From Clavelina lepadiformis (Eukaryota > Chordata > Ascidiacea > Aplousobranchia > Clavelinidae), in contig NC_135248.1 of assembly GCF_947623445.1 (NCBI RefSeq), positions 15,385,820-15,449,819 on the forward strand: 64,000 bases of DNA, in the 5' to 3' direction. The notes under the pieces are model-generated. The model searched no databases. It had not been told where the DNA came from and was given only the letters and a program-made list of their open reading frames with translations. How positions within the stretch are numbered: position 1 is the stretch's first letter; each line of letters starts with the position of its first letter. Below, in pieces: positions 3,675 through 56,859 of this stretch. The translations under genes were made by a program, and so were the position numbers.

Positions 3675-7612
<3,938 letters not shown>

Positions 7613-11115: not shown

Positions 11116-11914
11116 ATGAGCACTAGGGGCCGGCAAGTTTGTTCAATTAATGACATCAAAATACCGGAGAATCAAATCACTGAGGAGAAAATGTCTGGAA
11201 AAGACGAAGCCGAGAAATTGAAATTTATTTCTTCTCGTTCCTTTGACGCGGAGGGGAACAATTCCATGCGGAAATCTAGGACTAGCTCGGGACGCTTATT
11301 CAAAGTAGGTGGAGTTGTAGCCTATGTTTGCATGCCCTCGATTAATCGTATGTTTCTCGGTAAAGCCCGATATGAAGGCATGAGTGGAAACCGTGACAGC
11401 TTTTTGTTATTGTTCCGCATGAATCCACACCATCCGGTTTATGAAAACATTCGCGAATTTTGCTCGAATTTCAAATTATTTCGTCACAGGCGGTGCGCAA
11501 TGCTGTTCGTGTCACTAAGTCCTCATCTTTAGAGATGCAGGAAGCGGGATCCTCCGCGAGATCGACTCCTATTTCATCGAGGAGGTCACAATCCGTCGTC
11601 TCCCAGTTGAGTACGAAGCAGAGGGGCTCGCTTCTTCCCCCCAAACACCCCAGGAGCTGCAAGTGCCCCGACTGCAATGGATGGCTGTGTAAGGACCATG
11701 TGACGTCATGCTGATCATTTCGTCTTTCCGTGATAAATGAATAAAAATGTCATAAGTTTCATCCGCTATGAAGCCATCTCACATCGCCGCGATTAATTTT
11801 CTTTGATTTCTATTGTCAGCGGACAATGAAAAGGAAGAGCCGGAGCAAGTTGTGACGCAATACCATGATGATGACGTATGCTTGATCACCGACGGGCCCA
11901 GCTACACGTTCAAG
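11116..11914 (+). CDS. TRPA1: TRPA1 candidate 5' exon group 1 (three exons)
   Basis: Three joined exons, 11116-11304, 11490-11688 and 11820-11914, give 161 residues and end in phase 0, the phase needed to join the common exon at 19018. Junctions are GT-AG (AAA|gtaggt, TGT|gtaagg, AAG|gtgagc; acceptors cgtcacag and attgtcag) and the frame stays open across all three. The product is hydrophilic and Ser/Arg rich, with a Cys cluster in PRSCKCPDC and an acidic end, YHDDDVCLITDGPSYTFK. No similarity to a known domain was recognised. It could instead be the 5' part of another gene; joining to TRPA1 is inferred from strand, phase and absence of another downstream partner. Confidence 0.5.
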
Positions 11915-14532
11915 GTGAGCTTTGTCTTTCATCTTATCTCTCTATTAGACGTAGAAGGTCCGACATTTCAATATTTCTTGCAACGATGAAATTCTTTTGC
12001 TTCTATGTTTCAAGGCAACCTTGCTTTGACAGAGATTTAGGTTTAACTAAACAAGCCATAAGAAAAAAATAGGTATTATATTTATCTCTATGATTCATCA
12101 GACATTAATATTATCTTTTATAAGTCGTGTCAGGTCGATATTTGAATCTCATATGTTGTTTCCGACGCCAAATATTTGAGGTCTTTGTCGTAAAAACCGC
12201 GATTCAAAGCGCAATCATTTAGAGACCAATTTTAACGAAATCACAAGATCGATATTAACCGCATATCATCAACCACTTGGCATCGTTGTTTAAAAAACCA
12301 TTTGCCGCTGAGTCTGCGCCATAGATTTTACAACGTTTTTATCGAGATTTGTTGACTTGAAACAACAGTAAAATTTGCTTGGTCATTGTCACGTGTTTGT
12401 TGATAGGTGATGACTCATTGGTTTGTGAGCCGGTTGTCACGTGAGGAGAAAATGGCTTGCGCTCGACATTCAAGTTCAAACTGATAATTGTTTCCCACAT
12501 TATTGCGTCAAAATGGCGTCACTGCATCAACGTGGAGTATGCCTCGCACACGCTTTTGTTGTAAGCTCGTTTGCAAATTGTTATTTTAGCGGTTTGTGAT
12601 CCACCAATCGCGGTATTCGCGGCGGTAGATGTTCCCAGACTCACGGACTCCCAACCAACCGGATAGCGATAGATTCTATGTTGTCGTGTCGATTTCCGCG
12701 ATCTGCCTGATTGCAAGCGATTTACATCTTGACTTGACAATCCTATTCATCCAGGCTTATACTGTTTGTTGTTATCATTGTCAAATTTGCCTGTAAATGA
12801 TCCACTAAAACCTGATATGTGAAGGAAAGGGGATAGCCGTGCAGCATGACCTATGTAACATATAGTATATGTGTGACGATATTATCTTCATCAAATTCAA
12901 TTTTGCGGAAAGATAACTTTAATTATTTAAACGCAGGAAAGGAGATTTTATTTATAACCAAGTTTCTTTAATTTTTTTATCTCAATTTAACAGTAACTTA
13001 CATTGTTAGTAATGAATCCAAAACGTTTTAAATTATTTATGGGGTGACGTTTTATTTTTCATCTGTGTTTGCTTATACCTCAAAATTGCTTATTCACCAT
13101 GACCTTATCAATAATAGATGGAATAACATATTGTGGTCATCTCGTCTAGCGCAGCGTGAAAACAAATGTAGACGAAAAGCGACTTTTTTCTGGTAATCCA
13201 TAATTTTAATGTATTTTGGTGATCCTTGCCCCTCAGTTCTTTTTACTTGTGAGTTGTCTTTCCGCCAGCTTAGATCGACTTTACGTGGCGATACAATTGT
13301 TACGCGGTTAAGTGGTGTTACTTTTCAAATTGGTTCAATACATTGTCACTTTTTTATCGTTTTCAGTCTGATAACAAACTAAGCAACATTGTACATGCAA
13401 GATATCAATGATTTTACTTTATCAGAATTTCTGCTGCAATTTTCCAAATCGACCAGAATTACAACATAAAAGAAATGCTAAGTTACACATTTTTTATATC
13501 TCGTGTTATATAAAGTTAATGATATTTTTTTTGGATGAGGTTTACAGGGTTAAGTCCTTGCAAATATCAAAAGATCAATGTAGATTAAGTGAAGTATTTT
13601 TATTGTTTGGTTATTTCTTAAAACCCGACCCTCACAAAACATATTTATGACGTCACAAGGAACGTATAGCAATGGTGGGTCGTTAGACATGAAATTTGTG
13701 TTTTGAACTTTCCACTTGAAAGCGCATTTCTACTGATATTAATCATGTTTCTTAGTTTGGCGAAAACCTGTCGCAATTGATTATAACTTCCCTGACCTTT
13801 ATAAAGTTCGACATCAAAGTCAATTGAAACATTAAAAATGTCGCCTCCATAATCATAATATAAGTGTTTAAAGTTGTTTGGCCATGTTCGTGCTTTGTTG
13901 AAAAAAGGACTTGTTTTGGGGAAAAATTGTCTTTCTTTGAATTTTCTGCTTTTACGTTGTTTCCATGATGGCTTCGCTTCCTAAGATGATAATTATCTTA
14001 TCTTCCATTAAGCCTTTAAATTGCGCTCACTTACAACTGACCTGGAACAGATGTCCCGGGTTCGCCCAACGTTGAGAGGTTGGTGTGCTCGGAACAGTAT
14101 TTTGGAGAATTATTTTCAACGTTAATTTTCCTGCTTGTGTTTGACTTCAACATTAAGGTAGATAAGGGAATATTTTGCAGCCCAAGGGAGATGTCATGGT
14201 ATGATAACCTTAAAAGGATAAAGCAAAGCGAGATAAGAATTTAAGGGGAGGTCTCTTGTTTACTTTTCACATCATTCACCCACGTTGAATAAACATGGGA
14301 AATATCGTCAATAAGTATCCATTATTTTTATTGATCTCAAACGCTTTGCGAATATGATTAATCGATAAATTGACAAACGGAGTGTTTGTCCACGATAATA
14401 TTAACATATATATCTAGTAGCTTTAGCTCAATGACAAACAATAGTCTGTAATGGCTGATGTGGCGTTTGTGTTTTCCACAACAGATAAAAATACCTTAAT
14501 TGTTTAAACACTAGTTAATTGGACTCATAATT
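11915..14532. other. TRPA1 5' intron/intergenic sequence
   Basis: No convincing exon or repeat recognised. TGACGTCA occurs at 13648. If first-exon groups 1 and 2 are alternative starts, the promoter of group 2 should lie toward the right end. Confidence 0.4.
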
Positions 14533-14649
14533 ATGGGCTATTTGCGGCATAAGCAATCTAACGAGCGGTGCAACAGAACTTTCGTCAAACTTGGATGGAG
14601 CAAAAGCTCTGATTCGCGATTCGAACAAGTCTTAGATGCTTTAATTGAG
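14533..14649 (+). CDS. TRPA1: TRPA1 candidate first exon 2
   Basis: ATG at 14533, 39 codons (MGYLRHKQSNERCNRTF to FEQVLDALIE), then a strong donor, GAG|gtgagt, in phase 0, compatible with the exon at 19018. Small and without recognised similarity, so support rests on start, open frame, donor and phase. It could also be an internal exon using the ctag acceptor about 20 bp upstream, since the frame stays open there. Confidence 0.35.
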
Positions 14650-16752
14650 GTGAGTTGAACTTTTGACTTTGATCATTTTGATTGTTTGACAAGTTTCTTG
14701 CCACAGGCGTTACTTTGTGGCGCGGTTAGCAATCAATTTTATTTTGATTGAAATCTGCGCTGATAAGAGATTTTAAGCAATCGGATCGTTTCGCTTTTTT
14801 GTCAGTGAGATTCACTTTGATATTTCTATAAAATCATTTCTGTTAAAATAAAGGTTTTTTATTTAGCGCTGCTTGATATTGGTTGCTGTCAATCATCTTA
14901 ATCATTTTTTAGGTCTTTTACTTTTTCCGAAAAAGGATTTAGTTGACAGCGAGTATAGACGAGTTTAAAATCGAGATTGACATGCGCCAACACGCAAAGA
15001 ACATTTCTGCATGTTTTGCTGACGTCATCTTTCAGTTAATCTTGGAGCCTTTGATGTAGAGCAAGTTTCAAAAATTAAACATATTGATCTGGTCCGCTGT
15101 TCGAAGACGTTGAAGCTTCGAATATTTCACTGACTTAAACGTAGACCGTGACCATCGTTATAAGTGTTGCATGACCAAGCATTGATACGTAAAATATCTG
15201 CAAAGTAAACACCTGTACCCAACCACCGGTCGTTCAAACGTCGTTACATTGTAACCAACAACCAGCATTCTACATTTGTTTGCCTTGCGATGTGAATTAA
15301 CGATTTGCTCTGTTCGAGCCAGACGTCTTACCCTTCGCCTCACATGTTGCTTGTGTTGTAAGATATGGCGGCTCTCTTCATGGCCTGAAGGGATCTATGA
15401 ATAGTTTTTAGGATCAACATAGAATGCGAACAACCAGTCTCGATAAGTTAGAATGCGAACAAGACATGGACGCTATGATAAAGAAATTTGTAAATGTCCA
15501 GTATTGCAACGTCACATCTACCAGTTGCATCGATCATAGGTTTTGGTGGTTTCAAAATTAAGTTACGTTGATTTTGAAACCGCAAACTAGATATTTTGGA
15601 GTTCAGTTGCTCAGCTTATAAAGTACATAGTATATCTAGATGTCCACGAGGCTGTACGAATCAATACAAATTTTGTATTTGGAAGATAAATTTCGTTATG
15701 TCGTGTTTGAAAGGTTCTTTTGCCTTGTGAAGTAAATTCCACAGCAAATCGCGAACAGTTTTTGTGTAAAGAGATCTCAGAGCGAAGTTACGTGTTTTCT
15801 AAGCGGTGTAGTCGTCGATTAGGGAGTTCCCCTGGTTTACAACTAGCATTATGCCTTCGTCACTTCCCTCGCGAAAACTTAATTCTGTTTTCCAGGAAAG
15901 ACTGCTCGCTGTCAATCAACAGGACAGGCGGTGGCAGACGTATGCTCTGTGCACGTGCGGTTAAACAACTGATTTTACTTGTTATGATTGACATATCCAC
16001 ACTCGCCTGCGCAGAGTTTAAGCGCTGTATAGTTTCAGAATCACTGTGCTCAGTTATATCAAAATAATTCTTACAATTCTATTCTAGCCGACACGAGGGA
16101 AAGAGGTGTTGTGAGCTAAAGATTAGCCGGTCTGCAGCGGGGTGGCGAAACGCACGCAAAAGCGAATAAAGTTATTAAGAACATGTTTTGCATACATCAG
16201 GATTGTTTATGAAAGCGTGAATGAATGTAGAACCTAAGAATTGACACAAAAATATCTTTGAGATGATTTGAAAAATTTTTAGCCGCGTACGTTATGTGTA
16301 GCAGTAACAGTTTGGATTATTAAAAAGTATTTGTTTGAAAAATCATGAATAAAAGATGAACTTTGGCGCCCACTACCCGCAATTTCCTAACTTTCAAACT
16401 GCGTTCCACAGCTTTTGCGAAATTCTCAAAATCAACGTAGAAGCCATTATGTGCTTTGTACCGGCAATGGTTGTAACAGGTCGTTTTATTCTGCTTTGTC
16501 GGTGCAGCAGCAAGATGTTGGTATTTACTCGGAGGTTAGAGTGACGCTAAGTGAACAGATTCCCAATGAAGCATATCATAGGTTTAATCCTGACGTCATA
16601 GTTAGGGTTTTCTAGGGCTCCAATATGAAAGTTTTGTAGAAATTATTTATCATTGAAATCAGGGTTACGTCATAGTAGGATTAATATTGATGTCATTGCA
16701 AAAAGTAGCTCTGACGTCATAGAAGTTGTATGATTGTTTGATAATTCTTGGA
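14650..16752. other. TRPA1 5' intron/intergenic sequence
   Basis: A frame of 115 codons at 15720-16067 has no flanking splice logic or recognised similarity and is not called. TGACGTCA occurs at 15020, 16591 and 16712; the last two lie just upstream of first exon 3. Confidence 0.4.
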
Positions 16753-17133
16753 ATGGCCTCGAGTTATGGGAAAAGTTCCAAAAACTCAAATCATTCAGCG
16801 GCCCATAGAAATCGTACTAAAGACGAGGACGAGCCGGTGCCACTTTTGTCTATGACGTCATCACCGGAATCAAAACATTCGAACGAGATTGTTGGAAACC
16901 ATTCGGTGACGTCAAAATCTGGTAAAAGAAAATTGAAGGGGGTTTCCGGTCTCATATTTGGAAACAGAAATAAATCAAAACAAAGGCCTCCAACATGGAG
17001 GAACAGATACTCCAACAATCTCTCTTATGACTCTTACTATGGAGATACTGTCGTACCATTTTCTGTTTATGACGTCACAACGGATAGAGGTCAAAGGCAA
17101 GATATGGTGAAGCTAAACCAATCTCTGTGTCAA
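16753..17133 (+). CDS. TRPA1: TRPA1 candidate first exon 3
   Basis: ATG at 16753 (an in-frame ATG at 16726 is the alternative), 127 codons, ending TCTCTGTGTCAA|gtatgt in phase 0. The product is basic and Ser/Asn rich with runs such as GKRKLKGVSGLIFGNRNKSK, and no signal peptide. Its last 26 residues (PFSVYDVTTDRGQRQD then MVKLNQSLCQ) align without gaps to the end of first exon 4 (PFSPCDVISDNNFRRE then IAKESDFMRQ), with 9 identities, and both end CAA|gtatg. This indicates duplicated alternative first exons. Three TGACGTCA palindromes lie inside the coding sequence (16853, 16907, 17070). Confidence 0.6.
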
Positions 17134-18557
17134 GTATGTCCGACATTGACGTAAATTTGACAAATAATGATCAATATATTCCTTTCATGTTTATATGAGA
17201 GGCTGCAATTTGCGATTCCTTTAGCATCGAGCGTCGTCACTTGTTCCACATAACTTGCGATCATAAAAATCAGATTGAGCCGAACGTTTCTTACACAAAC
17301 GCGTTCAAAATTGCACTCACCAGGAAAATAATTTAATTTAGCTATGAAATGTATGAAGGAAATGTTTATAGATTTCATTTGAACCCTGGGAACCAATAAT
17401 CACATTATTTTTATTTTAATCTGTGCCAGATGCGCTTCTTTCATAAATCGATATAAAATGTAAAGAAAATCGTCCGCAAATGTTATTGACCGATTCCAAC
17501 AAAAGCTGAAACTTCAACTGTTGGTTAAAACTCAATGATTGTTTGAATTAAAAAATTGTGGTAAAATGTGTTTCACATCAAGGTTCGCTTTCATGGATGT
17601 GGTTTTGTATAAAAAAGATCTTTAAATGATCCCGAAAGGCCGCATCTTTTCATACGTTTGTTAGGTTCGATTGCATTGTGTAGGCAACGTACGGTCTCCT
17701 TGAAAGGTAAAAATGAAAAATTGCTTAATCATTATTCCCAAATATTTACTGAAACGTTTTTAAGAAACCTTGAATGCTTTGGCACCCAGGATGAGACGAG
17801 AGTGTTTTTGTTCTGTTGCTAGATTTTACGGAAACTTGCGATACTTTTCTACTATAAAGCGTATAGAGTCTGTACGCTAGTCTATGCTATGGAATATAAA
17901 GCAGACAGCGTTGGTCGCAATTTGCTTCATCGAGTGCGTTTAGACTTTTTGGACATAAACTCTATTTCGATGGTCGTCGTCTGTGACGTTTTCAGGAAAT
18001 TCTTAGGTTTAAAGCTGACGGTGCATCGAGAGATTATATAACGGCGGCTAAAGTAGAATTATCGTCCTTTTGCTAATTTCTTGAACCGCGATATTCTCAG
18101 GTTTGCGTGTCACGTGATACGACAACAACTTAATAACTGCCGCCCATAACAAGGTCACACATGAAGGTGAAGGCATGAAGCTTTATGGGCTATTACTTGA
18201 GCGCCACAGTATATGTTCATGTCAATTTGCAATCTTAGGGATGTTTACGATGGGTTAAAGCGCCGATGTATTTCATTTATCTCCTGGTGACGTTGAACGA
18301 ATTTCAAACATAAGTTGATCGGTTGAGCGTTGAATACTGAATTGGCTGAAGACAGGTTCAACCAATCTATGCTAATTTATCTCTCTGCGTAAATGGGCAT
18401 CGTCGTTGCATGATATCTGTTGCACTTTGAATGTTTTTGTTTATAGTAAAGACATCTTGTAATTATAATGCGAAGATGTTGGATAATTAAGAGAAATATG
18501 CCACCGTAGATGGTCGTTATTTGCGCAGTGAAGCTGCTTGTTTTACGCCGTTAAATC
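17134..18557. other. Sequence between TRPA1 first exons 3 and 4
   Basis: No exon or repeat recognised. Probably intron of upstream-initiated transcripts and promoter of exon 4. Confidence 0.4.
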
Positions 18558-18929
18558 ATGACTTTAAACGACACAAAACACCCGGCAAATGTTGGCGTTA
18601 TGCTTGAAGTTTATGGAGACGGTTTCAGGGGTGACCCCCAACGGACAGCGAAGTTCCCCAAAATATCATTGGCGGTGTCGGGAAAGTTGGCCGACGCAGC
18701 TGACAAAAAATTGTTCAGCCCAAGTTTTAATGCATCGATGCTCAATGCTTTCAAATTTGCCCGGAAAAGTGAAAGAAAAACGAAACATTTGTCCGAAATC
18801 TTATCTATCGATGAAATGTATCGCAATTCGTGCACTGAGGAAAATGTGCTTCCATTTTCACCATGTGACGTAATATCTGATAACAATTTCAGGCGAGAGA
18901 TCGCCAAAGAAAGTGATTTTATGCGTCAA
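18558..18929 (+). CDS. TRPA1: TRPA1 candidate first exon 4 (proximal)
   Basis: ATG at 18558, 124 codons, ending ATGCGTCAA|gtatgc in phase 0, then an 88-bp intron to the common exon at 19018. With it the full protein is 1260 residues (human TRPA1 1119). No recognised domain; the sequence has a basic stretch (FARKSERKTKHLSEILS) and ends in the segment shared with exon 3. It is the closest start to the ankyrin repeats and the simplest default first exon. Confidence 0.7.
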
Positions 18930-19017
18930 GTATGCGCCAACTACATTTCTATGTCCATTTAAAAACAACTCACCAGATCGTGATTTGATTAAGTTCCTGG
19001 AAAAATTTGATTTACAG

Positions 19018-22000
19018 CTCGCCACCCAAGGAAACGTGAAGCAGCTGGCGGCATTATGCAACGCGAATCCCGGCCGAATGTTGAGCTGCGACCGAAAAGG
19101 AGCAACAATTCTCCATCATGCAGCGGCAGCAGGACAAACCGCGGTCATCAATTTCATCCTGCAGTCACCGGGTGGCCCAGAACGTAAGAAAATGGTCGAA
19201 CGGAAAGCTTAATTGGTCTTGGCAGCAATTAGATTAATTTAACTTATTCATTAATTAGTAACTATTCGTATTGATCACCAGTTCTTGCGATGGCCGACGA
19301 CTACAAATGCACGGCGCTTCACTGGGCGGTGGAGCAGGATGTCCCAGAGAGCGTCACTCTCCTGCTAGCCGGAGGAGCCGACGCCAGCATCAAGAACAAC
19401 TCGGGACACGGGGCTCTGCATCTGGCAGTTTATAAAAACTCTCTGAAAGCGTTGAAGGCGCTGCTGGACTCGAAGGTAATAACCAGTGGAAGTCATTTAA
19501 TGGAGGATGTGATTCGTTTAATGGAGGAGTTAATTCCATTTGTGAAGTTTGATTCATGGAACAAGCGTTTAACTTAAACATCGGTAGAAAATATTTTTGT
19601 CAAAACACTTTCACGGGTCAGCACCGGACGTAACTGCGCGTCCAAATACAAAGCAATTGTCATGATTCTCACGAGGATAGCGTTATAATAGAATGCATGT
19701 CTTCTTATGTGACGTAGACAATCAACTTTGATGACCGTGGCAACTCGGGCGTGACCGCTCTTCACGTGGCGGCATCAGCAGACCATGACGACGCTTTTAA
19801 GATGTTGATGGATGCGGGAGCAAAACCCTGCCTGCCGTGCTCTCAGGGATACAGACCCCTTCACATCGCGGCAATGACCGGATCAAGGAAGTGCGTTGTT
19901 GCTTTTATTTTCACGTTTCATGATAAATATCGCTTTCAGTTGGCAGATTTGTGGTCACTGTTTTATCTTTGACAATCGCTGACAAGGATTTTGTAAAAAC
20001 TTAACATATCAAAGATTTCTATTTGTGTTGTATTTTCGTTAACAACAGACTTGTTGCTGGATTTCGTTGTAGTCGTTGTTTTATGAGCTTCAAGCATTGA
20101 CAACAATCGTTGTGTTCTTGATCAGCATTGTTGTGTATTGAGAGATTCTCATATTGATATTATCTTGAAGAGTGATGCGGTTGTTGCTGGAGCACGCCCA
20201 GCAGTACGGGTACACCAGCGAGAAGCTCCTCTCTTACGGGGACAAGGAACAGAGCAGTCCCCTGCACAGCGCCGTCACCGGTGGAAACATTTGCGCGATT
20301 GAGCTGTGCTTGGAGTGAGCACTTCCATGACTCTTCTATACTTTAAAAGTTTTTTCAAAAATGTTTTAAAATAAACAATAAACATCAAATGCGTCACCTG
20401 CATCAGCGTAAGCTAATGTTTTATGTCGTTGTATAGTCACGGGGCAAGGTTGGATGTGAAGCAGGCTGACGATTCCACTCCCATGCACATGGTCTGCGCT
20501 CAAGGTGCGGTTGACATCATCAAACTTATGTTTGACAAAGCTCCGGATCAGGCCAGGTCTAGTCTCCTTATGCTGGACAAGCAGGACCACTCCCCCCTGC
20601 ACAAGTAATTATTTAATCAGCCTTCGACACTTTGTTGAACAAGTGAACATCTACGCTGTAGCTGTTGTTCACCTGGAATTGTCGCCTGTAATTATGTAGA
20701 ATTGTAAAACGCAATTTCGTGATGATGCAGCCAAGTCTGCCTCGCGTTTAACGAGGTCATAAGTTTGATGAGGTTCGATTGTTCAGGGCGGCCATGTTCA
20801 ACCATCCATCGATTGTCGAATACTTAGTGGAGCAAGGAGCAGATATGGAGCTTCTTGATGTTGATGAGAAGACCGCGCTTCTCGTCGCTGCTTCCCGCGA
20901 AAGCTGGGATTGTGTCCGGACCCTTCTACGCTTGGGAGCCAATGTCATGGTCAAGGTATTGAAATGATATCTCTGTTTATTTATTATAATCTTCCTTCTT
21001 TGGAAGGTTTCTAATCTTAAGTTTGATCTGTTCCAAGGACAAGGACGAAAGGAACCTGATGCACATCATTGTGCTACAGAAGGGCGACATCTGCTTCTTG
21101 GCCGGCAGAGGTTTGAAAGAAGTCCACGTGATCTGCACCAACTTGTTGACGGTTCGTGCCGGTATTTTATGTCATTTTGACCGATATTAATAAAATCACC
21201 GCAACCGCCAAGTCGCTTTAATCGTCATAGAGTTGATTGATTCATCTTGAATCGTATGTTGTAGAAACCGGACGTGTTCGAGTTGATGAGCAGACCAGAC
21301 GCTTACGGTTGCACGCCACTGCACTATGCGTGCCAGGAAGGAAACCTGGCCAGTTTGAAAACTCTCATGAAGTTGGGTGTCAGTGCCAGGTTGAAGTCGT
21401 GGAAGAAGCAATCCGCCATGCACTTCGCTTCTATGTACGGGAGGTACAACGCATGCGTCCGCTTGCTCGACAGCGACCAGGTGCGGACGTTACATTTCCA
21501 CTTGTATTTTTGTTTGAAGAGTATGAAATATTATAATAATGTCTAGAGTGATTTCACTGAATTCGAGATATTTTTAGGTAAATTTGTGTTTATTTATTTC
21601 AATAAATTAATGAGGAAAATGTCCAACTTAATGCAACAAAAAATCCAACTTAAAGTCACCAACAGTTAATTATTCCCTGGAATAAAATCGAATTCTTTAA
21701 AAACTTTCTTGGAAATGATTTAAATTTTCTGCAGGGTCCGAACATTATTAATGAGAAAGATGATCAAGGGATGACCCCTCTTCATTTCGCTGCGATGAAC
21801 GGACACGTCAAAGTGGTCCAACTTCTAATGAACAGGTCTTACCTTGCTACATTTGTTCTATTTGAATAAGGGCGACACCTCTAGAAATCATTTTCTACTC
21901 CAACAACGATGTAAACTTTTAAGCCCACAGATAATTTTACTTATTTACACAAGTTTAACTCCGTCATATACAGAGGAGCGATCATTCATCGAAACTTGAT

Positions 22001-25000
22001 CGGCGCGACTCCTCTGCACGTTGCTGCCTCGAGTGGTTATACGAGGACCATCAGGAGCCTGGTTGAGATGCATGGACACCTGCTGGACCAAGTGGACGGC
22101 GATGGGGTGGGTACCTATAGGGAGTTTTAGCGTTGTCGCGGTTAAAATATTGTTTCACTTACATCTCTATTCTACCTACATCTCTGTTTACGTCTCACAC
22201 CGGACAACACCATTGTTATTGAACTGTTGATAAGGGCTATTATCGATTATTCTCTGCTTCTTTCCAAACATCCTCTTTCTCTGTTGTTGCCAGAATACAG
22301 CCATGCACCTGGCTGCCAGCGCTGGTCACGTGAACGCTGTTGAACTATTGTTGGATCTCAACGCGTCGTTCATACGTAACAATGACGATGAAACTTGCTT
22401 CACTGAGGCGATAACCAATCAGAATCAAGAAGTGGCCATGGCAATAATCCAGGTATTTTCACGTCATCGTTACATAGTGTATACGTCATTACCAAGCGTT
22501 GAATCCCAAATTGTTTTACAAACTCATGGTTAATAATGGGTAATTGTGACGTCAGCACGATAGATGGAGCGAAGCGATGAAGCCGTTCTCCAAAGCAGAC
22601 TCCACGATCGTTCCTCCGGTCCTGCTCCTCATCCAATATCTTCCCGGTGTGTGCGTGGTGAGTGCAGGAAGCTCGCATCTGTAAACTTCTTCATCTTTTG
22701 AGCTGGAGCATACTCAGTGTCTGTGATTTCTATGCAGGCGGTATTGGATCGCTGCAAGGAGATGGCGGATGTTGACGTGAGGAGCGAGGAGTACTGGATT
22801 CGCTACAACTTCAAGGTTGTTGTCAAAATATTCCTCTTCTTAACAAACATCATTAAAATATAAAAACTTTCCTCCAAGAACACTAAAGTTTTCTTCCAGT
22901 ACTTGCAACCTTCCGCCAACGCCCGCGACGAAATCATCCGGAAGTGGAAGGAGCGTCAACGCGAAGAGAAGAATGATGAGGTTGTAAAGAAGCCGGCAAA
23001 CCTGATCTTCTCCTCCATGATATCAAATGGATCTGTGGCCCTGCCTGCTCTCAATGTAAGTATGAAATAACAGCCGTGTTGGAGCCGCTCCGGTGGTTGA
23101 AGTCAGTCAAAATGTAAATTGTCATGTCATGAAAATTGTCTGCTCAATGTCGCAGCTTTTGTAGAAAAACACCTGGTTTCTCTCATTTTGTTGCCCTCTT
23201 CAAGACTTACGTTTACTTTGCACTGAATTACATTTTTAAATATATTAATTATTTCTTAATTATACAAAACAAATAAAGCAATTCTCGTTTAACCTATGAC
23301 CTCTTGTTCATTGTTCCGTCAAGGTCATGGTTGAGTTCAATCGCGTCGAGTGCTTACGTCACCCCGTGTCTGTTGCGTATTTGCATCAAAAATGGTAAGT
23401 CGACGACGTCATATATTGTATCTATTTTTAAACAAAAGCAATTCTTGACGTCATATCTCCATGACAACCACCATAGGCGATCTTACGGAAGGCTCTTCCA
23501 CGGGATCAACCTGATTTTCTACATGATGAGTCTCTTCCCCATCACTTACATCGCGGCCAGCGTCAACTCATTTCCTCATCTCGAGAACAGCGGGTCCGAA
23601 TTTCCACCGTGAGTCACGTGCTTGTAAGGCGATAACCATTGGCTGCCAGAGTCCTGAACCTGGCTGAATGGATAAACTGAGCACATCATCGCCGTCACGT
23701 CTTGATGTGCTTATAACGGTTTATCTTTATGGGAATATGTTAGCAATTGTATTTTATTCTGTGTTCCAGCAACTTTGATTTCCATAAATTTAAGTAGAAA
23801 TTTTTTTGTTCTTTCTTGTTTAGCGGGAACGAAACGTTTTCTCGCATTCCGGTCTCCTTCTCCAGCTTCGAAAAATCGATGATGATTCTTCTAACTGTGG
23901 TCAATATCCTTCAGATGGTGAAGGAGGTTGTGCAGATGTATCAGCAGGTGAGAAAGCTAAACTTCATATTCATCAGGTCATCGCGGATTAATTTTTTCTC
24001 TTAAATAAAGCGATTTCGTAATTTATTTCCAACTTTGAAACTTTAGTTTGTGGAAGGGGAGTTTGGTCTTTTGTCACGTCCATTTGTCTAAACCAGTGGT
24101 TTTCAACCTGGGGGTCTTTAGCCTTTTTTCTAGGTGTTGCAAGAGCTTTCGACGTACCATAGAACACATTTTAGTAAAATTTAATTATAAATACTTTTTA
24201 TTTTGCTGCTGTGAATGCACAACAGCGTTACATGTGTTTAGCTGGATATTTTGGAAGGGGGTCGTTTGATTATATTGGGTTGAAAAATGGGTCGCTGAAT
24301 GAAAAAGGTTGAAAACCACAGGTCTAAATTATGTTCATCACATATCCGGGGAATTAGTTTTTATAAACTTGCCGACGCTTTCAGAGAATGAATTATTTCC
24401 TGGACTTTACAAACTTGGTGGAATGGACTCTCTACTTGACCAGCGTGTTGTACGTGGCCCCCTTCTTGACCGGATACCCGGTTCACTGGCAGTTTCAGGT
24501 CGGGGCCGTCGCCGTATTCTTGGCTTGGTTCAATCTCTTGGTCTTCTTACAGAAGTAAGCTCCCGGTCAATAAACCTCGTTGTTGTAATGTTCTGCTTAC
24601 GCCGACCTACAAGTCGTCATCTAGCTTTTTGTGTCAATATTTGAACCGTAACATTGTTGAAATAATTTGGAGCTGCGCTTCAATGAACGTACGAGGCGAG
24701 ATTACGACGATTTTTCTCGCAGGTTTGATTTGGCCGGGATCTACGTGGTGATGTTTATGCAGATCCTCAAAACTCTCATTCAAGTCCTCCTCTTCTTTTC
24801 ATTCCTCATCATCGCGTTCGCGCTCTCATTCACCGTTCTCATGAGGAATGAGGTATGAAGAGTCGATTTATTTTCATGAGTTTATTCATAAACTTTTTAT
24901 ATGATTTAAAACCAAACCCCGCACAGCACTTAAAAGTGTCAAAAGTGTCCCGAAGTTGGGATAAACCCCGCACAGAAGTGTCGCCTGGATACCTGCTTTA

Positions 25001-28000
25001 AATAAGTACAATGCAGGATCGTCAACAACGGGCGTTGAAGTTATTGTCCTTTATTTTCAGGCCGACCGCGCCTTCTCTGACCCCTTTCTGTCGATGATGA
25101 GAGTCACCACCATGCTACTGGGCGAGATTGGGTACCTGGAGACCTTCCTCGCTCCCTACGTGGATGGGAAGCCTGAAACTTATCACTTCGGGATCACATC
25201 CTTTCTCCTGCTCAGCGTCTTCATCTTGATGATGCCGATCCTGCTCATGAATCTACTCATCGGTCTGGCGGTTGGTGACATCGCTGAAGTGCAGAACAAC
25301 GCCGTGCTGCAGAGACTCGCAATGCAGGTGCCTCCATGAGATCCCGGCCTGACATAAATGCTTGTTGTGTGACGCAAACATTTCATTTGTGACGTAATTA
25401 AGGCAACGACTGGTTTCTAACCATGCCACATATGACTCTCGGCGACTCTTGATGACTATTTTTGTGCAGGTGCAACTCCACACTTCGATCGAGTCCAAGC
25501 TACCTGCAGCTTTCCTTGAAAGAGTCGACAAAAATTCCGTGACTTTTTACCCGAACAGACGATGTTACATGATGCAGAGAGTGTGGAATGAGGTTCGTTT
25601 ACATGACGTCACAGCGTAAACATTTTCCAATCGCTAATCTCCGTAATATTTCAACCATGACGTCTTACATAAGCGATGCATTGTTAACTTGTTAATAACG
25701 CTTAGTACACTCGATGAAGCTGATGCTTGCATTTTTATCATTGGAAAAGTTTTGGCAAAAAACTTTCTAAAATAAGAGCGAAGTTCGGCAAAATAACAGA
25801 TAGGAGATGGCATTGAGCCATTACCAGTGCGACCACTTAATCGAAAGTCTCCCATGTTGAAGGTTTTCAAGCACACCGGGGTCCAAACAGATTACGGAGA
25901 TTTGAGGGAGAGCCGCAGAGGAGATCCCAACATGGAGCACATGCGCGCAGAGATGATGAAGCAGAAGAGAAGGTGAGATGGAACACCTCAGCATGGTGCA
26001 TGTTTCTAACTATCAGTTGGTAAAATGGCCAAGTAGCTGAGTTAGTTATTACTTGGCCAACTACAACTAGTTGCTCTTCCTTATAACTTCCTAACTTTTC
26101 TGAATGCGCTTGTTGCAAGCGAGTGAGAAAAATTCGAATCGTGTCGGATTTTCGCTTCTAAAAGCGACGAAGTGAACACAACGCAAAGTATTTTCTGCTG
26201 CCACCCCAGGTTTATGCAATTTTTGTGAAGTCTCAAAATAGATGTTGTTTTAGCCTACAGCGCACAGCGTAGGGTGAAGGTGGCGGCTTCACGAGACTAA
26301 GTGTCGAATTTCAACAACAACAACAACTCGAGTTGAAATCCTTAAAAATACAAACCACATTTAACTTGTATAGTGAAGCGTTTATTAGCATAGATACGCA
26401 TCAATTTCGATAAAAACTTCGTTATGTCGTCAAAATAAAATAAACCAAAGCATCCATTAAGAGCGACGAAGAACTAATAGTAATTGTCTGTCGACATATT
26501 TTAGTTCTCCAAGAAAATTGAAGCATGGGTTTGACATTTAAAGCCATCTGTTCATGTCTAAGTAGCAGGATGAACATCGTAAACACTTCTCTAATTATTG
26601 AGAAACGCGAATAGAACTTAAAATACTTCTCTCAAAATTACGCAAGTTTGCTTCAATGCTATTTTGCTTTTTACTTAAATGTGACCTTTTACGTAAGCGC
26701 ACGAAATTCTTTCGCCTTTGAAATGGCACGAACGTAGGACGAGCTGTCCATAAGCCAATGTCGTTATGAGCACGACTTTAATCCACCTTTGGAAAGGTTA
26801 AATATAGATGTCATTTTACCAAATATGACATTAAACGCTTTACGACTTCAAGAAAACAGATTTCTTCAAACTAGAAAGGTCGTGCAGCTGTGACTCATCA
26901 TTTTCATCAACTGCTGTGACCTTCACAGAAATCGCGCCACTTTCCAGCTTCTTTGATGCGGCAATGAACGATGTCCTGGCTTCATTTCAAAGTGCTGGTC
27001 TGGACAAACGATAAACTTCTTCCAGTGCTAGAGCTTGTAGCATTGTTGTCCAAGTTGTTGTTGCCCAGCTTCATGTACTTGAAGAAGTGCCTGTTGTGGT
27101 GCTTGTAGATGACACAGTTGAAAAATGAGTTGGCAAATAATATCCTGGACGCCAAGTAAGCAAACGCGTTCCAAGCTGCTTTCGCTTCGGGGTTAAAGGT
27201 CATACTGCTTGGTTCGAGGGTCACGTCCATTGTGGAAATCATGACAGCGATGCCGGGCATGATGCACGCTGTGAACGCGCACACCACCATGCGGACAGTG
27301 GCGGTGACTCTGGATTCGAGCTTGTTCAGATTTTTCGCCCGAGGTAAGATTTTGGGACCTTCCATTGTGAGCTGTGGAGTTGTTCTGCTCCTCATCTTCT
27401 TTTCATCTAAACCATCCTCAACATCTTCGTCATTGTTTGCTTCTCGCTCCGGGATCTGCTCGCGGAAGTCCTCTGTGCGGGAGTAGCGGACTCTTCTCTT
27501 CTTGATGTGCTGTCTGACGTAATAGACCGCCCCAATGTTCAGACCCCACACACCGAGGAGGGAAGTCCCCAGAAAGACGAGATACGCGACGAACAACTAA
27601 AGATAGACAATGACGACACAATGATAATATCGTTCAGATAATATCGATGATATTATTGTCGACAAATAAATGTCAAAAGTTTACCTCCGGTGCTAATATG
27701 ACCCCAAGAGCGGTCACAGTGTAAGGGGTGCTGGGGTTAAATACTGGGATGATAGCGATGACGAAACTGAGTGCCCATATAGCAACAATGACGACCGCTG
27801 TGGCCTTTCCCGCGCGTCTTTGATGGCCTTTGCAGCTGAATGGGCGATAGATTGTCAGAAATCTGTTAATGAAATGACAAAATATTTCAAGTTTTTTGGT
27901 CGCGCGTACTGTAATCATTTTTATAACTTCATACAAACTCTGAATATCGCATAAATATTTGCTGACGTACCAAGAAGTCGACAGGAATTATTCGGTTAAG

Positions 28001-31000
28001 TTCGGTCTCTCACCTTTCGAATGACGTCACCACCAGAGTAAAAATGGAGGAGGAAAATGAGAGGACAGTCACAGTTCCGAAGCCATCGACGTAGGACTGA
28101 GAATGATAGTCAAGTATGGTCGGTAGGTGACCGTCCTCAGTAAACTTATGAGGGCCGAAGTACATGGTGTAGGTCGTGTTTATCACTCCTCCTATCACCG
28201 CTCCGATTAATAGATCAGAGATCGCCAGAGACACGCGGAAACATCTTCAAAAACAAAAGCATAATGTTTATGATGCTCGGTACAATGTGGTTGAATGCCT
28301 TAGAAAATATGTTTTCAGATGTTTTTGCTTTTGCTTCCCAACACTACCAATTACATTGAGGTTGGGCAGCGCCGGTAGACACGTTTTGTTACTTGTTATA
28401 TAACGTGCTTATTATTGTCGAATAACTTGCTTATGACGTTATACAATTCAGCGTTAAGCGGCTGCCACGACTCGCAAAACAAGTCGCATAACTTGAACTT
28501 TATACTCACCCATAAATGCGATGAAATTTCACGATATTCCACGATGCTCTCAATATAATAAGGTTCGCTACCACCACCGCGGTTAGTAGAATTGAGTCGA
28601 TCGCGAAAGTCGCGTAGAGAGCCGCTGTGTAAGACTGAGGCAAGCAGAGGTTGGCCGAGCGCCATCCTGATTCATATCTTTGTTTCGTGAATCCACAAGC
28701 CACAGGCAATGCAAAGGGTATAGTGTGAAAGAACCACTCTGTGTAGTTGGGGTAGAGTGGTTGATCAATTGATGCGCGATCCACATTCAGTCTCTGCTTC
28801 TCCTTGTAGTAACCTCTGATATCCGCGCATGCGTGCTGGGCAAGCCAGTGTAGATCGGACGTTATTCCGGGGCCGAAGATATTGTAATCCTCGGCAATGT
28901 TTGTGATTTTTTCAGTAGTTTTTCCTCCTGTGTTGTTGGTTTTCATTTCCATTAAATCACAGAATTCATTGAAGACGGAGTTGTTTCCGGATCCTGCTAA
29001 GAACCGACCTTGAGTTGCTGATTCGTTTTCTTCACACAATCTCAGATACACCAACCGGTGGTACACAGTGTGGTCATATTCTTGTACTTTGCACTTTTTC
29101 GTAAACACTGAAGCATCACTGCTATTACCCCGATATCTCATATCAGACAGAGTGTCGAGGTATCGGAGGAGAGACCCTCTTTGGGGATTGAACTTTGACC
29201 CCGTTGAACTGTCACTGGACGCCGCATCATACAAAGTTGCGACCAAGATAAGGAAAAGAATTTCCAAGTGGAAATGACAAATCATTCTCATTTGCCGCAA
29301 TCTCTTGATAAGCTGCAAGTTTCAGATCTTGCTTAACTCGCATCATCATCTGAATGAAACCCGTCATCAGTGGAATGACCTTTTATACCCACAGAGATTA
29401 TTCTTATCGTCATGCGCCGGCCAAAGCCTGAGGGGATTGACATTAAATCTTCAATTGGTCTCTGAGGTTGAACCGAGCTACCGGTGAATGTTTCACAAAC
29501 ACTCCTGCGATCGACAGAACTTGTTTGAAAACTTTTGCTTTTTAACCCCAGTTTTTCAAATTGACTTTTGCCGACAGTTAGATGCATAACAATTCCTGCA
29601 CTCAATGTCCTCAGCAGACCAGGCCAAAAGATATTGAAAAGTCCCGCCAGTGACGGCATTGGCGTGGGGAGATGCGCCCACTAATCATATCTAATTTGAT
29701 CTGAAAGGATCGGCGTGGTACGAATAGCTTATGTTGAGTCGACGGCTAATATTGGGCGGCTCGTGAAGTAAAGGCGTTCACACGAACGACAGAAAGCGGC
29801 GCTAGAAGTGACCTTTTGGTTGTTTACCAAAACGACGATTAGAGCCAAAAATAGCAGATGTGCGTCAAAGCAACCACAGTTATGCCTCCGTGATACCATG
29901 ACATCAACTCGCTTGTTAGACGCTTGTTATCTCACTCCGATTTTGCTCAATTTTAACTCAAATAATTTGTTTCGCGTTTTATTTTCGTGGTTGTTAGACG
30001 CTCTGTGGCAAACGTTGTGAAATAATTTTCCAAACGGTGACTTGCCTTTTTTGCACAAAAGTTTGAAAAAGCTCTTTTCGGAAAATTCTGTAAACACGGA
30101 GACGTGTAAATGTTATTAAGATAATTGTCTTGCTTGTAAATCGCCAATTGTATTTTCTGTTTGTTAGATTCACGTATTTTGTGAACATCCCACGGTGTTG
30201 TCTTAAACTTTGCAGAAATTCCTTAATTAAAAACTTTTTCGCACCTTTCTCAGTAGATTTTAAGGTAAAATTCTTTCCTTAGATTTAGGAAATATTTTCA
30301 CCCCAAATTTGCCTAAACATTGAAAAAAGTCAAAGTTGTAAATTGAAGCCAAAATCATACAATTGCAGTGCAAAATGAGGATTTACAAAACCACTAAATG
30401 CAGTTTTTGTTACAAACGATTTAAATTTCATGTTGCTTCTGCGTTTCAGAAGTCCAATTATAGACTGTTTGGTGAATTTTAAGTCACGTCTTAGTCAAAT
30501 ATAACGCAGCACGAAAAGCAGATACGCCCTGCCCAGCAATACGCTTCATTTGACATTTAACAATTCTCGAATGCGTCATAAAATGTTTTTGCTGACGTTG
30601 ATTGATGGAAGGCGCGCGCGTAATTGCATCTTCGAGCGTCAGTGGCACTCGCAACTCTAACTTAGCGGCCGCGGTTTCAAACCTAATTATAAACCAACCT
30701 GTGGATACCGGATATCAAATAGCGCAAGTTATCATTTTCTATGTTCAGCCCAACACCGACTCATTTATCAACGATTTCTGCTGCAATCCGCCTGTTCGAC
30801 CTTAATTGCCGCTTTTTAAATGTTACGTTTCCAATTTTGTTTCTGATTTTTTCCAGATAGCTGACTTAGGAAAATATATACTTAAGGTTAAAGTTTATTG
30901 ACTTATATGGTATGGTATTGACTTATATATAAAATATATATTTGGTGTTATACTGACATATATGTGTATACGACGCATGCTCAGTGTTCTTGCCACGATA

Positions 31001-31338
31001 CGTTGAGAAAACTTTGTAAATTATGGCTAATTTTTACATTTTTTTGAATACATAAGAATCAGTTGAACAAAACTTTACACCATGTGGTGGCTTTAATCTG
31101 TAAATTACTGAATAAATTTCTCTGCAGAATGAAGTCAATGCAAGCAACTTTAGAAAAGCAGCACGACCTCTTGCGTTTGATTGTGCAAAAGATGGAGATC
31201 CGCTCGGAGGCGGATTACCAAGACGAGGGATTCATGGAAGCATCTCACAAAGGAAGCTCACGGCTCTATCCTGGCCTCCCGGGATCCAGTGGAAGCAAGT
31301 TACTCGCCCTTCGCGCTTTAAAGTCCAAGAAATCTTAA
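19018..31338 (+). CDS. TRPA1: TRPA1 channel, common exons 2-24
   Basis: Ankyrin-repeat cation channel of the plasma membrane, a sensor of irritants and temperature. 23 exons: 19018-19183, 19282-19475, 19718-19890, 20171-20314, 20437-20604, 20787-20955, 21038-21151, 21265-21480, 21735-21835, 21974-22106, 22294-22452, 22556-22657, 22738-22815, 22900-23055, 23324-23394, 23477-23608, 23824-23947, 24385-24554, 24723-24852, 25061-25327, 25470-25592, 25863-25972, 31128-31338. They total 3411 nt: 1136 residues and stop. About the first 560 residues are ankyrin repeats (TALHWAVEQ, TALHVAAS, TPLHYACQEG, TPLHFAAMNG). Then come the linker, six membrane segments, a pore loop with LGEIGYLETF, S6 with LLMNLLIGLAVGDIAEVQ, and a C-terminal coiled coil (ATLEKQHDLLRLIVQKMEI). 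Every junction keeps frame, so the gene looks functional. The acceptor of exon 23 may be 25863 or 25872. The pre-S1 linker and the pore differ from human at key residues (see findings). Confidence 0.95.
21856..21870 (+). other. 15-base match to the Ciona spliced leader, in a TRPA1 intron
   Basis: TTCTATTTGAATAAG equals the last 15 of 16 bases of the Ciona spliced leader as I remember it (ATTCTATTTGAATAAG). It is not followed by GT, so it is not an SL RNA gene at this site. It could be a fragment of a trans-spliced mRNA retrocopy or chance. Confidence 0.3.
24094..24321. mobile_element. hAT (Charlie-like) MITE in TRPA1 intron
   Basis: Begins CAGTGGTTTTCAACC and ends GGTTGAAAACCACAG, a near-perfect inverted pair of the kind found on Charlie-type hAT elements. 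Flanks GTCTAAAC (24086-24093) and GTCTAAAT (24322-24329) match at 7 of 8 bases. 228 bp, no coding capacity. It lies between TRPA1 exons 18 and 19. Confidence 0.9.
26026..26059. repeat. Short hairpin after TRPA1 exon 23
   Basis: TGGCCAAGTA at 26026-26035 and its exact complement TACTTGGCCA at 26050-26059 enclose a 14-base loop, 54 bp past the exon 23 donor. No function assigned. Confidence 0.5.
26982..29318 (-). CDS. Class A GPCR nested in last TRPA1 intron
   Basis: Rhodopsin-family receptor, four exons: 29318-28510, 28244-28014, 27862-27685, 27596-26982; 1833 nt, 610 residues. Start is the first ATG of the frame; a second ATG (MRMICHFHLEILFLILVA) would put the signal peptide right at the N-terminus. 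The ectodomain is long, about 230 residues, with at least six Cys and several NxS/T sites. Seven membrane segments follow: ATFAIDSILLTAVVVANLII, SLAISDLLIGAVIGGV, VTVLSFSSSIFTLVVTSF, TAVVIVAIWALSFVIAIIPV, YLVFLGTSLLGVWGL, VVCAFTACIMPGIAVMI and AFAYLASRILFANSFFNCVI. The DRY motif reads ERF (SFERFLTIYRPF) and NPxxY reads NCVIY. The third intracellular loop is long and charged. The ligand is not recognisable. It lies wholly inside the 25973-31127 intron of TRPA1 on the opposite strand. A minus-strand AATAAA near 26374 may end its transcript. Confidence 0.88.
29319..31127. other. Remainder of last TRPA1 intron
   Basis: Upstream region of the nested GPCR and, further right, plain AT-rich intron with TATA-type simple sequence near 30880-30970. 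No other gene seen. Confidence 0.5.
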
Positions 31339-45046: not shown

Positions 45047-46353
45047 ATTCGCACAACACAGGAAGAGGATGTTCGTTATGTTTTCTTATTGTTATTACTC
45101 AGCATTTATCTAAACAAATGTTCACAAAATTATAAATTTGTAATGGAAAATGGCACCTGAAATTTAGAGATTGACCCACTTCAGTACAATAATTACTTGT
45201 TGAAATGATTATTGCGGGTGATAACATATGAGTCTCATGAGGTCATTGTCTACTTTTCTCACCCACAGATTTAATTGTTCACCTTGACAGCTTATTGTCT
45301 GATGACAGGCTTCAATTAACAGTGATCAATATTATAATGATTTGTTTTCCATTGCTATATTATAGGACCAAAGTCCTTGTTACTTTGTGAAGATGACAAT
45401 AAAGTTGTCTATCTTAATACTGAACTTCTTCAAATTGAATTCAAGAATGGTTACACAGGAATGACAGCTGTATATACTGATTATATTGAAGTTTCTTTGA
45501 ACAAATGCATTTAGACAAAACATTGGCAAGACATCCATGTTACAGCGATGATCTTAGTAGAAAATGAATGCATTGAACAGCTGTGCATAATTCACGCAAG
45601 ATAGGCAGGCGCAATATTTATGTCACGACTTAAAACGGAAGTTATCTATCATTGACGTCATGCTTCGTAAAGCAGACGTCTGAAAATAAGAATTCTATTG
45701 GATTTGTATATTATAATATCCCTTTATTATCACAAATTATTCAGGGAAAGTTTTTTCAAAATTACTTTTTACAATCATTTGTTGCAATAGCTTATATAAT
45801 GTCTAAATTTATGACAAAATGCTCATCTTGATGCTCTTGCTTGATGCAATCTTAATGCTCATATTATGCTTGATTTAACATGCTCAGTATATATAAAAAA
45901 GTAAGTATTTATAATTTAATAAAACTAAATGGAACAATATCATTGCTGAAATGATTGTGATTGGAATTGGCAAACAGATATATACGTATATGTTTATTCG
46001 TATAGATAGATTGCGGATGTTTTAATAAACCCAGCCGGCCGTTATTTTCAGGCTTTGCTTATAATTTACAACGCATCAGGCCAGTTGTGGTCGTAAATAT
46101 GTGGAATAGAAGGAGAGTAATAGACATCAAATTAAAGATTGACTGTTGCCAAGTTTAAGGGACAGGATGTGGTGGAAGTTCAAATAAGTGTTAGCCTACG
46201 ACCAAGGAACTTGATCAACTTTGCAAACGCCTAACATATGGATGCTTGTTAATCTTAATCAATTTTTAAAATTTCGAAATTTTTTTTACATAAGAAGTCA
46301 GCGTAGGGTATTCCCCACACTGTCACCTTAGTTGCGTAATACTGTGGTTATAT
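45047..46353. other. Intergenic, no gene seen
   Basis: AT-rich spacer between SelW and the LTR element. Another AATAAA lies near 45400. TGACGTCA near 45653. Nothing else recognised. Confidence 0.45.
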
Positions 46354-46648
46354 TGTAGCGGCCGTTGGGTGTTTTGTTTGTTTGTCGCTGGATGGCGCTC
46401 TCGCGATGCTCCCAGCACATGTTTATAAGCACTGTTAGTTCGTTTTACTGTCTCTTTTTCGTTTTGCACTGCCTGCGCGCAGGACATCAGTTCGATTAAA
46501 GACTTGAAGTAAGAAGGTCGTACTTGTTTTTCCTTTAATATATGAGCGAAGGTAACAAACAACTGAGTAGCAACCTTCTGAGCAAAGGAGTCAGCATCGT
46601 AACAACGCAGCATCGCAACAGCAACGTACAAGCTCTACCTTCGCCATA
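46354..46648 (+). repeat. Left LTR
   Basis: 295 bp, begins TGTAGCGGCC and ends CTTCGCCATA by comparison of the two copies. The flank on its left reads GGTTATAT. Confidence 0.8.
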
Positions 46649-47491
46649 TTTTCTGGTGACCCCGACAACCTACCTTCGCCATATATTCTGGTGACCTCCG
46701 ACTACAACTCTGAAGACATGTCTACAACCCATGCAAGGTTTGTTCATCGAGCTTTTAACTGCAAGCCACCGCGGAACGATGGTGTTGTTGAAACTTTGTT
46801 TGACCCCGGATGCGAGGGTGGCGGAGAACCAGCATGCTGAACAGTGCACGACGCGTGGAAGGTCATTCGAGAGGCCTGCGCGGTGTTCCAACACTCAGTG
46901 GTGAATGTGTGTTTGCGTTTTGTTTATTTATAAGCGTTTCCATTTGTTGTGTATTTTTTTTACGCCTACCAAGGGTAACTTGAATATTACACCAAAGATT
47001 ATTGCCCAGCTGTCATTTTGTCGTGCTTATCAAGGGCTTATTATAACCTTTGATAAAAATCCACACGATCTGGTGTTACGTATAATAGCGTTCTATTGCC
47101 GATTGTGTTATCACACTAATCTTAATGGCCCTAATTGCCATGCTTTTAACGGCACTAATTGCCATGATTTTACCGGCATTAATTGCCATGCTCTCTGACG
47201 GCGAACTCCTGTCGTGGAGAATTATTCCTTTGCATTCTTTTGTTATGGTGTACACTGTACACATAGTGGCTGTTTTTGGGAAGGTGACGTCCTTCCCGCT
47301 GCTGGCGCTACTGCCATACTCACAATTGTTCTTTTTGCACGATAGGTTGACACAGTGGCGCTGAGATAATCCCAAATTTGTAAAATGTGAGTTGTGCTTG
47401 TTAGATCTCAGTTTTGTTTTATTAGTTCGCATTATGTGTTATCCTCATCGCTTTCCGCCCTCTTATTTTCTTGCCGGGAAGGAAAGATGTA

Positions 47492-47786
47492 TGTAGCGGC
47501 CGTTGGGTGTTTTGTTTGTTTGTCGCTGGATGGCGCTCTCGCGATGCTCCCAGCACATGTTTATAAGCACTGTTAGTTCGTTTTACTGTCTCTTTTTCGT
47601 TTTGCACTGCCTGCGCGCAGGACATCAGTTCGATTAAAGACTTGAAGTAAGAAGGTCGTACTTGTTTTTCCTTTAATATATGAGCGAAGGTAACAAACAA
47701 CTGAGTAGCAACCTTCTGAGCAAAGGAGTCAGCATCGTAACAACGCAGCATCGCAACAGCAACGTACAAGCTCTACCTTCGCCATA
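47492..47786 (+). repeat. Right LTR
   Basis: Same 295 bp as 46354-46648. The flank on its right reads ATATAACC; ATAT on both sides could be a 4-bp target duplication. Confidence 0.8.
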
Positions 47787-55609: not shown

Positions 55610-56330
55610 TTCGGGCCACTTGAGTGGCATGAACAGGTCAATCACATTTATCAAGCTTGCTTGTGCCATAGTTTATACCGTCAATATTTTTTAAGTGCAC
55701 GGTTGCATATTATGTGGAAGTTTAATGGCAAATCTTCACCAACCTCTGCAAGGTTTATAGAAAACTGTTTATTTCTTTACAACGCGAATTATATCGACCA
55801 GAGAATATTTTGCGATATAAGCAGTGTTGCATTTAACTGTGATGTTGTAATGTACTACCTATGTTGCGGTGTTTGTATGTTGCTTTGCAAATATGAAATA
55901 TTTAGCAAGTATGATGTTAGCGTTAAATTTAGCAGCTGTATCTACAAATGACATGCATCTGTTTTGAAGCATTGTTCACATCTGATGTGTTTTTATCATT
56001 TTGTTACGTTATAATTTCTCGTTTTAATAAAAGTCTTTATTTGTTTTGTTTGTTGTCTCATTATTATGTAATAAAATCTCATACTACGTTTCGGTTCTCT
56101 CATTCTTTTAAACCTGAAGCAGAGTTTCAGCTTTATATATATTTTCAATAACACATGCAACAGCATTGAGGAAGTTTTCTGTTAAAATCATGTCGTGAAA
56201 TAAAAGACGTGAACAGAGTTTTGATTTTGTGGCACAACATTTTAATCCTGTTGACTAGCAAGCTGATGATATGACAATTGTGACAAGCAGCCACTGCTAA
56301 GAAAGTTATATGACAACTTGAAATATTTAT
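55610..56330. other. Region after HDHD3, no gene seen
   Basis: Probable 3' UTR of HDHD3 followed by AT-rich sequence; an AATAAAA occurs near 56026. Nothing else recognised. Confidence 0.45.
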
Positions 56331-56752: not shown

Positions 56753-56859
56753 TTTGTATATTTTACAGTTATTAACTGAAATTAGTATTTAGCTTAAGCA
56801 TCTTATTTTTTCAATTTCAGAAAACGTCCATGGTGTTGTGCCCACGCAAGCAGTTCAGC

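Follow-up and report, generated by a model that had tools for sequence, protein, structure and literature searches.

The window analysed here, 64,000 nucleotides (nt) of the ascidian Clavelina lepadiformis (C9:15385820-15449819), contains one TRPA1 gene that probably has a choice of N-terminal exons in front of its common exon 2. The candidates are a distal start of three exons (E1) and two proximal starts of one exon each (E3 and E4), and from the sequence we put the probability of this reading at about two in three. TRPA1 is a channel for irritants and heat in other animals. E3 and E4 appear to be two related alternative first exons, because their tails match, two long frames are present where 0.16 would be expected, and E4 ends 88 bp before exon 2. 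Alternative N-termini are an arrangement known in arthropods; here it would occur in a chordate. The candidate first exons, including a doubtful fourth start (E2), and the exons of the common body are listed below by their positions in the window.

E1a, 11116-11304, plus strand: first coding exon; 63 codons with a phase-0 end; donor score inside the range of the body donors
E1b, 11490-11688, plus strand: second E1 exon; CKCPDC cysteine cluster; phase fits E1a and E1c
E1c, 11820-11914, plus strand: third E1 exon; phase-0 donor; homologous to the vertebrate-type TRPA1 N-terminus
E2, 14533-14649, plus strand: doubtful alternative first exon; 39 codons with a phase-0 end
E3, 16753-17133, plus strand: probable alternative first exon; 127 codons from the ATG; phase-0 donor CAA/gtatgt
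E4, 18558-18929, plus strand: probable alternative first exon; 124 codons from the ATG; phase-0 donor CAA/gtatgc
Exon 2 (common), 19018-19183, plus strand: 166 bp; starts at the first ankyrin-like repeat; all candidate starts would splice to it
Exons 3-24, 19282-31338, plus strand: common body with ankyrin repeats, channel domain and C-terminal segment; phases consistent; matches to TRPA1 in the PDB

Structure and identity of the TRPA1 gene

The common part of the gene was assembled by hand into 23 exons extending from 19018 to 31338, which encode 1157 amino acids with all phases in agreement and end in a TAA stop codon at 31336-31338. tttgatttacag directly precedes exon 2 at 19018, and exon 2 is open in phase 0, as the first-pass annotation of the window had proposed, and joins this consistent body model. 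E1, E2, E3 and E4 each have their own ATG and a phase-0 end compatible with exon 2. Every open frame, donor and phase-0 end claimed for these starts was found where it had been placed, and the stretch from 11116 to 11914 resolves into three exons.

A phmmer comparison of E1 plus the body with the PDB sequences returned TRPA1 as the top nine matches (E down to 5e-226), in keeping with the name first given to the gene. Query residues 132-804, 848-1180 and 1230-1282 aligned on TRPA1 chains, an end-to-end channel architecture. Among the 21 PDB sequences with E<=1e-40, the best nine were TRPA1 at 457-757 bits, and ankyrins and NOMPC scored at most 266 bits; this ranking covers PDB sequences, and only those TRPA subfamilies that have a solved structure. 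These alignments identify the gene as a complete TRPA1, nearer to the TRPA1 sequences than to the other TRP channels and ankyrin proteins compared.

Downstream of exon 2 there are 22 introns with a median length of 175 bp, and the last of them measures 5155 bp; intron 1, between E1c and exon 2, spans 7103 bp. No second match to any TRPA1 body exon, including a duplicate of the fly-type nexus exon, was found in the window. The genome as a whole (209,060,895 bases in 95 contigs) has weaker matches to the TRPA1 pore exon on C3 and C5. The pair of sites G000:C3:16612008-16612145 and 16616355-16616609 comprises the C3 match and an ankyrin match lying 4 kb away from it; the C5 match is at G000:C5:10357028-10357213. 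These are probably further TRP genes, and a second TRPA is perhaps among them. Inside the 5155-bp last intron, open frames on the minus strand (26985-29321), one with a sub-threshold match to Pfam 7tm_1, may represent a nested receptor gene on the strand opposite to TRPA1.

The distal start E1

E1 consists of 189, 199 and 95 nt, which together give 161 codons and a phase-0 end. We compared the four N-termini by phmmer, each fused to an identical stretch of 178 common residues. When E1 preceded this stretch, the alignment spanned the junction (query 132-338) in 7 of the 7 vertebrate-type TRPA1 chains among the matches listed, the last 30 E1 residues (from query 132) aligning from residue 12 or 13 of those chains. 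The matches to vertebrate-type chains with E4, E3 and E2 in front started at common residues 13, 14-15 and 14, respectively. The tables name these chains only as TRPA1, and we presume them to be of vertebrate origin. The score of the E1c core, EKxEPxxVV.....DD, against the vertebrate-type N-terminus was reached in 0.0025 of 2000 shuffles.

Since E1 alone of the four N-termini carries the vertebrate-type alignment over the junction, E1 is by homology the conserved canonical TRPA1 start. The first-pass annotation had named the assignment of 11116-11914 to another gene as a case that would overturn its model. We rejected that assignment, because E1c is homologous to, and contiguous with, the vertebrate-type TRPA1 N-terminus. 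E1c and the whole body align with vertebrate TRPA1; however, only the last 30 of the 161 E1 residues do so, and E3 and E4 have no match there.

The donor of E1b scores lower than all 22 body donors, which makes the join after E1b the least certain of E1. In a codon model trained on TRPA1's own exons, E1b and E1c scored 0.274 and 0.39 bits per codon, E1a scored low (-0.015), and E1 as a whole reached 0.195; the minimum among nine 125-codon blocks of the body was 0.277.

Position of the junction and comparison with arthropod TRPA1

The position at which E1 meets exon 2 could be placed on a 1197-residue chain of known structure, 7ykr, which we take to be fly TRPA1, as its length suggests. This chain aligns without gaps from its residue 62 through the first repeat, with query residue 161 paired with 62 and query residue 162 with 63. 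According to PMC10073219, the differences among the fly isoforms are limited to the first 62 residues and the nexus segment, and dTRPA1-A has 1197 residues. Because query 161/162 pairs with chain 62/63 and the exchanged fly N-terminus is 62 residues long, the two junctions coincide; by this alignment the ascidian E1/exon 2 junction is the fly isoform boundary 62/63, directly before the ankyrin repeats. The parallel to Drosophila TrpA1 drawn in the first-pass annotation thus extends down to the junction residue.

In the fly gene, too, one body is preceded by a distal start of several exons and a proximal start of a single exon, the junction lying at 62/63 of dTRPA1-A; a figure legend in PMC5666710 places the ATG of isoforms A and B in exon 3 and that of C and D in exon 1. 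The ascidian gene differs from it in having two proximal first exons with related tails, in that no alignment with the fly chain continues past the junction into E3 or E4, and in that the second alternative site of the fly, the nexus exon, has no duplicate in the ascidian window. A similar arrangement is described for mites in PMC4929936: several 5' exons, each having its own ATG, are joined to a shared exon that lies ahead of the ankyrin repeats in Tropilaelaps mercedesae (isoforms a, b and c) and Varroa. The same paper reports three mite TRPA1 N-termini with different initiation sites and different chemical responses. The N-terminus alters the chemical response there on the evidence of RACE (rapid amplification of cDNA ends) and recordings, whereas in the ascidian such an effect is only predicted; the common exon is 184 bp in the mite and 166 bp in the ascidian. 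No report of alternative TRPA1 N-termini in a chordate was found in the open-licence literature, judged by titles and abstract openings among the matches listed.

The candidate first exons E3 and E4

The last 26 residues of E3 and E4 share nine identities, and the two donors are identical as CAA/gtatg; both features had been noted in the first-pass annotation and were recovered here. The BLOSUM62 score of the paired tails is 40, which none of 20,000 shuffles reached. Control tails came from both strands of 20 genomic stretches, each 10 kb long (400 kb in total, real coding sequence being kept), and every tail had a phase-0 donor with a score of at least 5, 26 open codons and an ATG upstream. 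The 238 tails obtained gave 28,203 pairs, from which 11 pairs with at least 18 identities were removed as repeats; the score of 40 was reached by one of the remaining 28,192. The local alignment of the full exons was equalled in 0.0005 of 2000 shuffles, and without the last 28 residues p was 0.42. By these comparisons the two tails are related beyond chance and their likeness is confined to the tails. The tandem duplication proposed for the two exons is supported as relatedness of the tails, and not over the remainder of the exons.

The length of the frames and the position of E4 also favor E3 and E4 as first exons. Frames of at least 120 codons from an ATG to a phase-0 donor (score of at least 5) numbered nine in the 400 kb. 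This amounts to 0.16 in 7.1 kb of a single strand, against the two present here. The 88 bp between E4 and exon 2 is a normal intron size for the TRPA1 gene. E4 has an in-frame stop one codon upstream of its ATG, with no AG between them.

These data can also be read another way. E1 might be the sole real TRPA1 start. E3 and E4 would then be parts of intron 1 that are non-coding or have decayed, for instance a regulatory element that was duplicated, and would be open by accident. We consider this somewhat unlikely, since the two long frames exceed the 0.16 expected, both tails stop at donors that agree in phase and sequence, with their DNA likeness dying out 20-40 bases into the intron, and E4 is adjacent to exon 2.

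Several observations nevertheless favor accidental frames and weigh against E3 and E4 as first exons. Their codon scores are -0.191 and -0.087 bits per codon, respectively, and are not body-like; they lie in the null range, 19 of 62 random frames scoring as high as E3 and 12 of 62 as high as E4. (The 16 open frames of at least 180 codons in the 20 stretches were mostly mobile-element- or repeat-like and so were excluded from codon training.) In three simulations, neutral decay of a duplicated stretch equalled the tail protein score in 6.7%, 8.0% and 17% of cases, frequencies at which decay of the tails free of protein-level constraint is not rejected. BLASTP of E3 against E4 gave E=0.26, no Pfam match was found for E3 or E4, and searches of the genome with E3, E4 and the E3 tail returned only themselves, with no second copy.

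A repeated DNA word also bears on the tails. The window holds 19 copies of the palindromic octamer TGACGTCA, a 20-fold excess over the 0.93 predicted by dinucleotide frequencies. Five copies (16591, 16712, 16853, 16907 and 17070) fall in 16591-17070, three of them within E3, as might be expected if E3 were a non-coding element. DV, a pair among the nine residues shared by the tails, sits in TGACGT, a word of this octamer, which further weakens the case for a coding tail. The tail score after dropping DV was 30; still, just 2 of the 28,192 control pairs reached it.

The low codon bias may reflect a fast-changing N-terminus, given that E1a and whole E1, the latter likewise under the minimum of the body blocks, also score low; even so, the bias continues to count against E3 and E4. 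The likeness of the tails over 26 codons was 0.69 at first, 0.58 at second and 0.54 at third codon positions. A DNA comparison of the surroundings of E3 and E4 gave nothing below E=0.34. Resemblance of the E3 or E4 tail to E1c (p of 0.72 and 0.72) or to the vertebrate-type N-terminus (p of 0.69 and 0.79) was tried and rejected. On balance, we prefer the reading in which E3 and E4 serve, together with E1, as alternative N-terminal exons.

The doubtful start E2

The first-pass annotation had allowed up to four N-termini. E1 stands as the canonical start and E3 and E4 as probable ones; E2, which lacks both tail similarity and coding bias, is a weak candidate for a TRPA1 first exon. Use of all four starts is unlikely in our view. 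One argument for it is the E2 donor, the best of the set: a donor score of at least 11 behind such a frame was seen three times in 400 kb, or 0.053 per 7.1 kb. The length of E2 by itself carries no meaning, because frames of at least 39 codons numbered 76 in 400 kb, and 1.35 would be expected by chance per 7.1 kb. The codon score of E2 (-0.029) is in the null range, being reached by 13% of 499 random frames, and its tail was unlike both the other tails and vertebrate-type TRPA1. When fused to the 178 common residues, E2 matched the 1197-residue TRPA1 chain from query residue 35 and chain residue 59, five residues before the junction, at 133.8 bits versus 125-127 bits for the other N-termini; shorter queries score higher on all chains, and we regard this match as slight support for the start.

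A possible spliced leader and the choice of start

The Ciona spliced leader (SL) pattern with its donor, TCTATTTGAATAAGGTAA, was searched for in the genome with up to two mismatches. It matched 874 times in forward and 742 times in reverse orientation, and the reversed control 27 and 12 times, respectively. Many of the leader-like matches lie in tandem units of 745 bp, forming an array that covers at least C6 ~12.139 to 12.231 Mb (for example, locus L033, G000:C6:12150082-12153099, near 1501). From these counts, trans-splicing with a leader like that of Ciona seems likely in this aplousobranch ascidian. At gathering thresholds, Rfam had no match in either the window or locus L033.

With more than 1,600 leader-like sites in the genome, the 5' ends of TRPA1 may themselves be trans-spliced, a further reservation about the proposed set of first exons. 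The start might then be picked by splicing from one upstream promoter, through SL trans-splicing or a shared 5' non-coding exon, with acceptors just before E1, E3 or E4. We hold this to be possible but doubtful; it is a version of the choice between N-terminal exons, and the two can hold together. In addition to the leader matches, it is favored by the estimate that about half of Ciona genes are trans-spliced, given in PMC11155486, and by acceptor-like sites that precede the ATG of E1 by 15 nt (score, 8.67) and that of E4 by 29 nt (5.6). However, a quarter of random ATGs (25% of 6805) have an acceptor with a score of at least 5 in the 50 nt upstream, so the sites before E1 and E4 prove nothing, and no acceptor above 2 was found nearer than 90 nt upstream of E3.

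Proposed mechanism and significance

Under the alternative N-terminus reading, the distal E1 would supply the conserved vertebrate-like N-terminus, and the 7.1-kb intron 1 would house E3 and E4, the last 30-40 codons of which would derive from a common sequence. Transcripts beginning near E3 or E4, or trans-spliced just before them, would be joined to the phase-0 acceptor at 19018. The products would share the ankyrin, pore and C-terminal parts but differ in the cytosolic N-terminus, which would be 161, 127 or 124 residues long. An exchanged N-terminus shifts the thermal threshold or chemical range of TRPA1 in fly and mite; by analogy, it may tune the thermal and chemical response here, and separate 5' ends may set the cell type. 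We infer that the starts are expressed, that they have separate promoters and that their products differ in function.

Should the joins prove real, a chordate would be using, at the same protein position, the device by which a single fly TrpA1 gene obtains different temperature and chemical responses, and N-terminal swapping would be no peculiarity of arthropods. The sister group of the vertebrates would then offer natural variants for probing the unresolved N-terminus of TRPA1. A broader and quite unlikely proposal is that the phase-0 intron before the TRPA1 ankyrin repeats is an ancient exchange point for N-termini. Alternative starts would then have been present in the arthropod-chordate ancestor and kept in flies, mites and sea squirts, and reduced to one start in vertebrates; in this sea squirt the start cassette would have been duplicated, with the choice perhaps made by SL.

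Other features of the window

A poly(A) RNA-seq library of Clavelina lepadiformis, ERR10908613, is named in PMC10884593. Upstream of TRPA1, protein kinase exons were found on the minus strand at 4955-6155 (Pfam Pkinase, E of 1.1e-19 and 2.8e-12). From its look, we presume the kinase to be of the NDR type. The minus strand also has two pairs of near-identical open stretches (46326-46634 with 47425-47772, and 56330-56703 with 58511-58947), which indicate repeated segments inside the window. On the plus strand at 56776-57616, long open frames in all three frames, made of one repeating peptide (CQLLPAFVPGLYANYYQ...), mark a tandem repeat. A 345-codon open frame on the plus strand at 1914-2948 has no Pfam match; a similar-looking frame is present in stretch L020, one of those examined, and the frame may be a repeated element.

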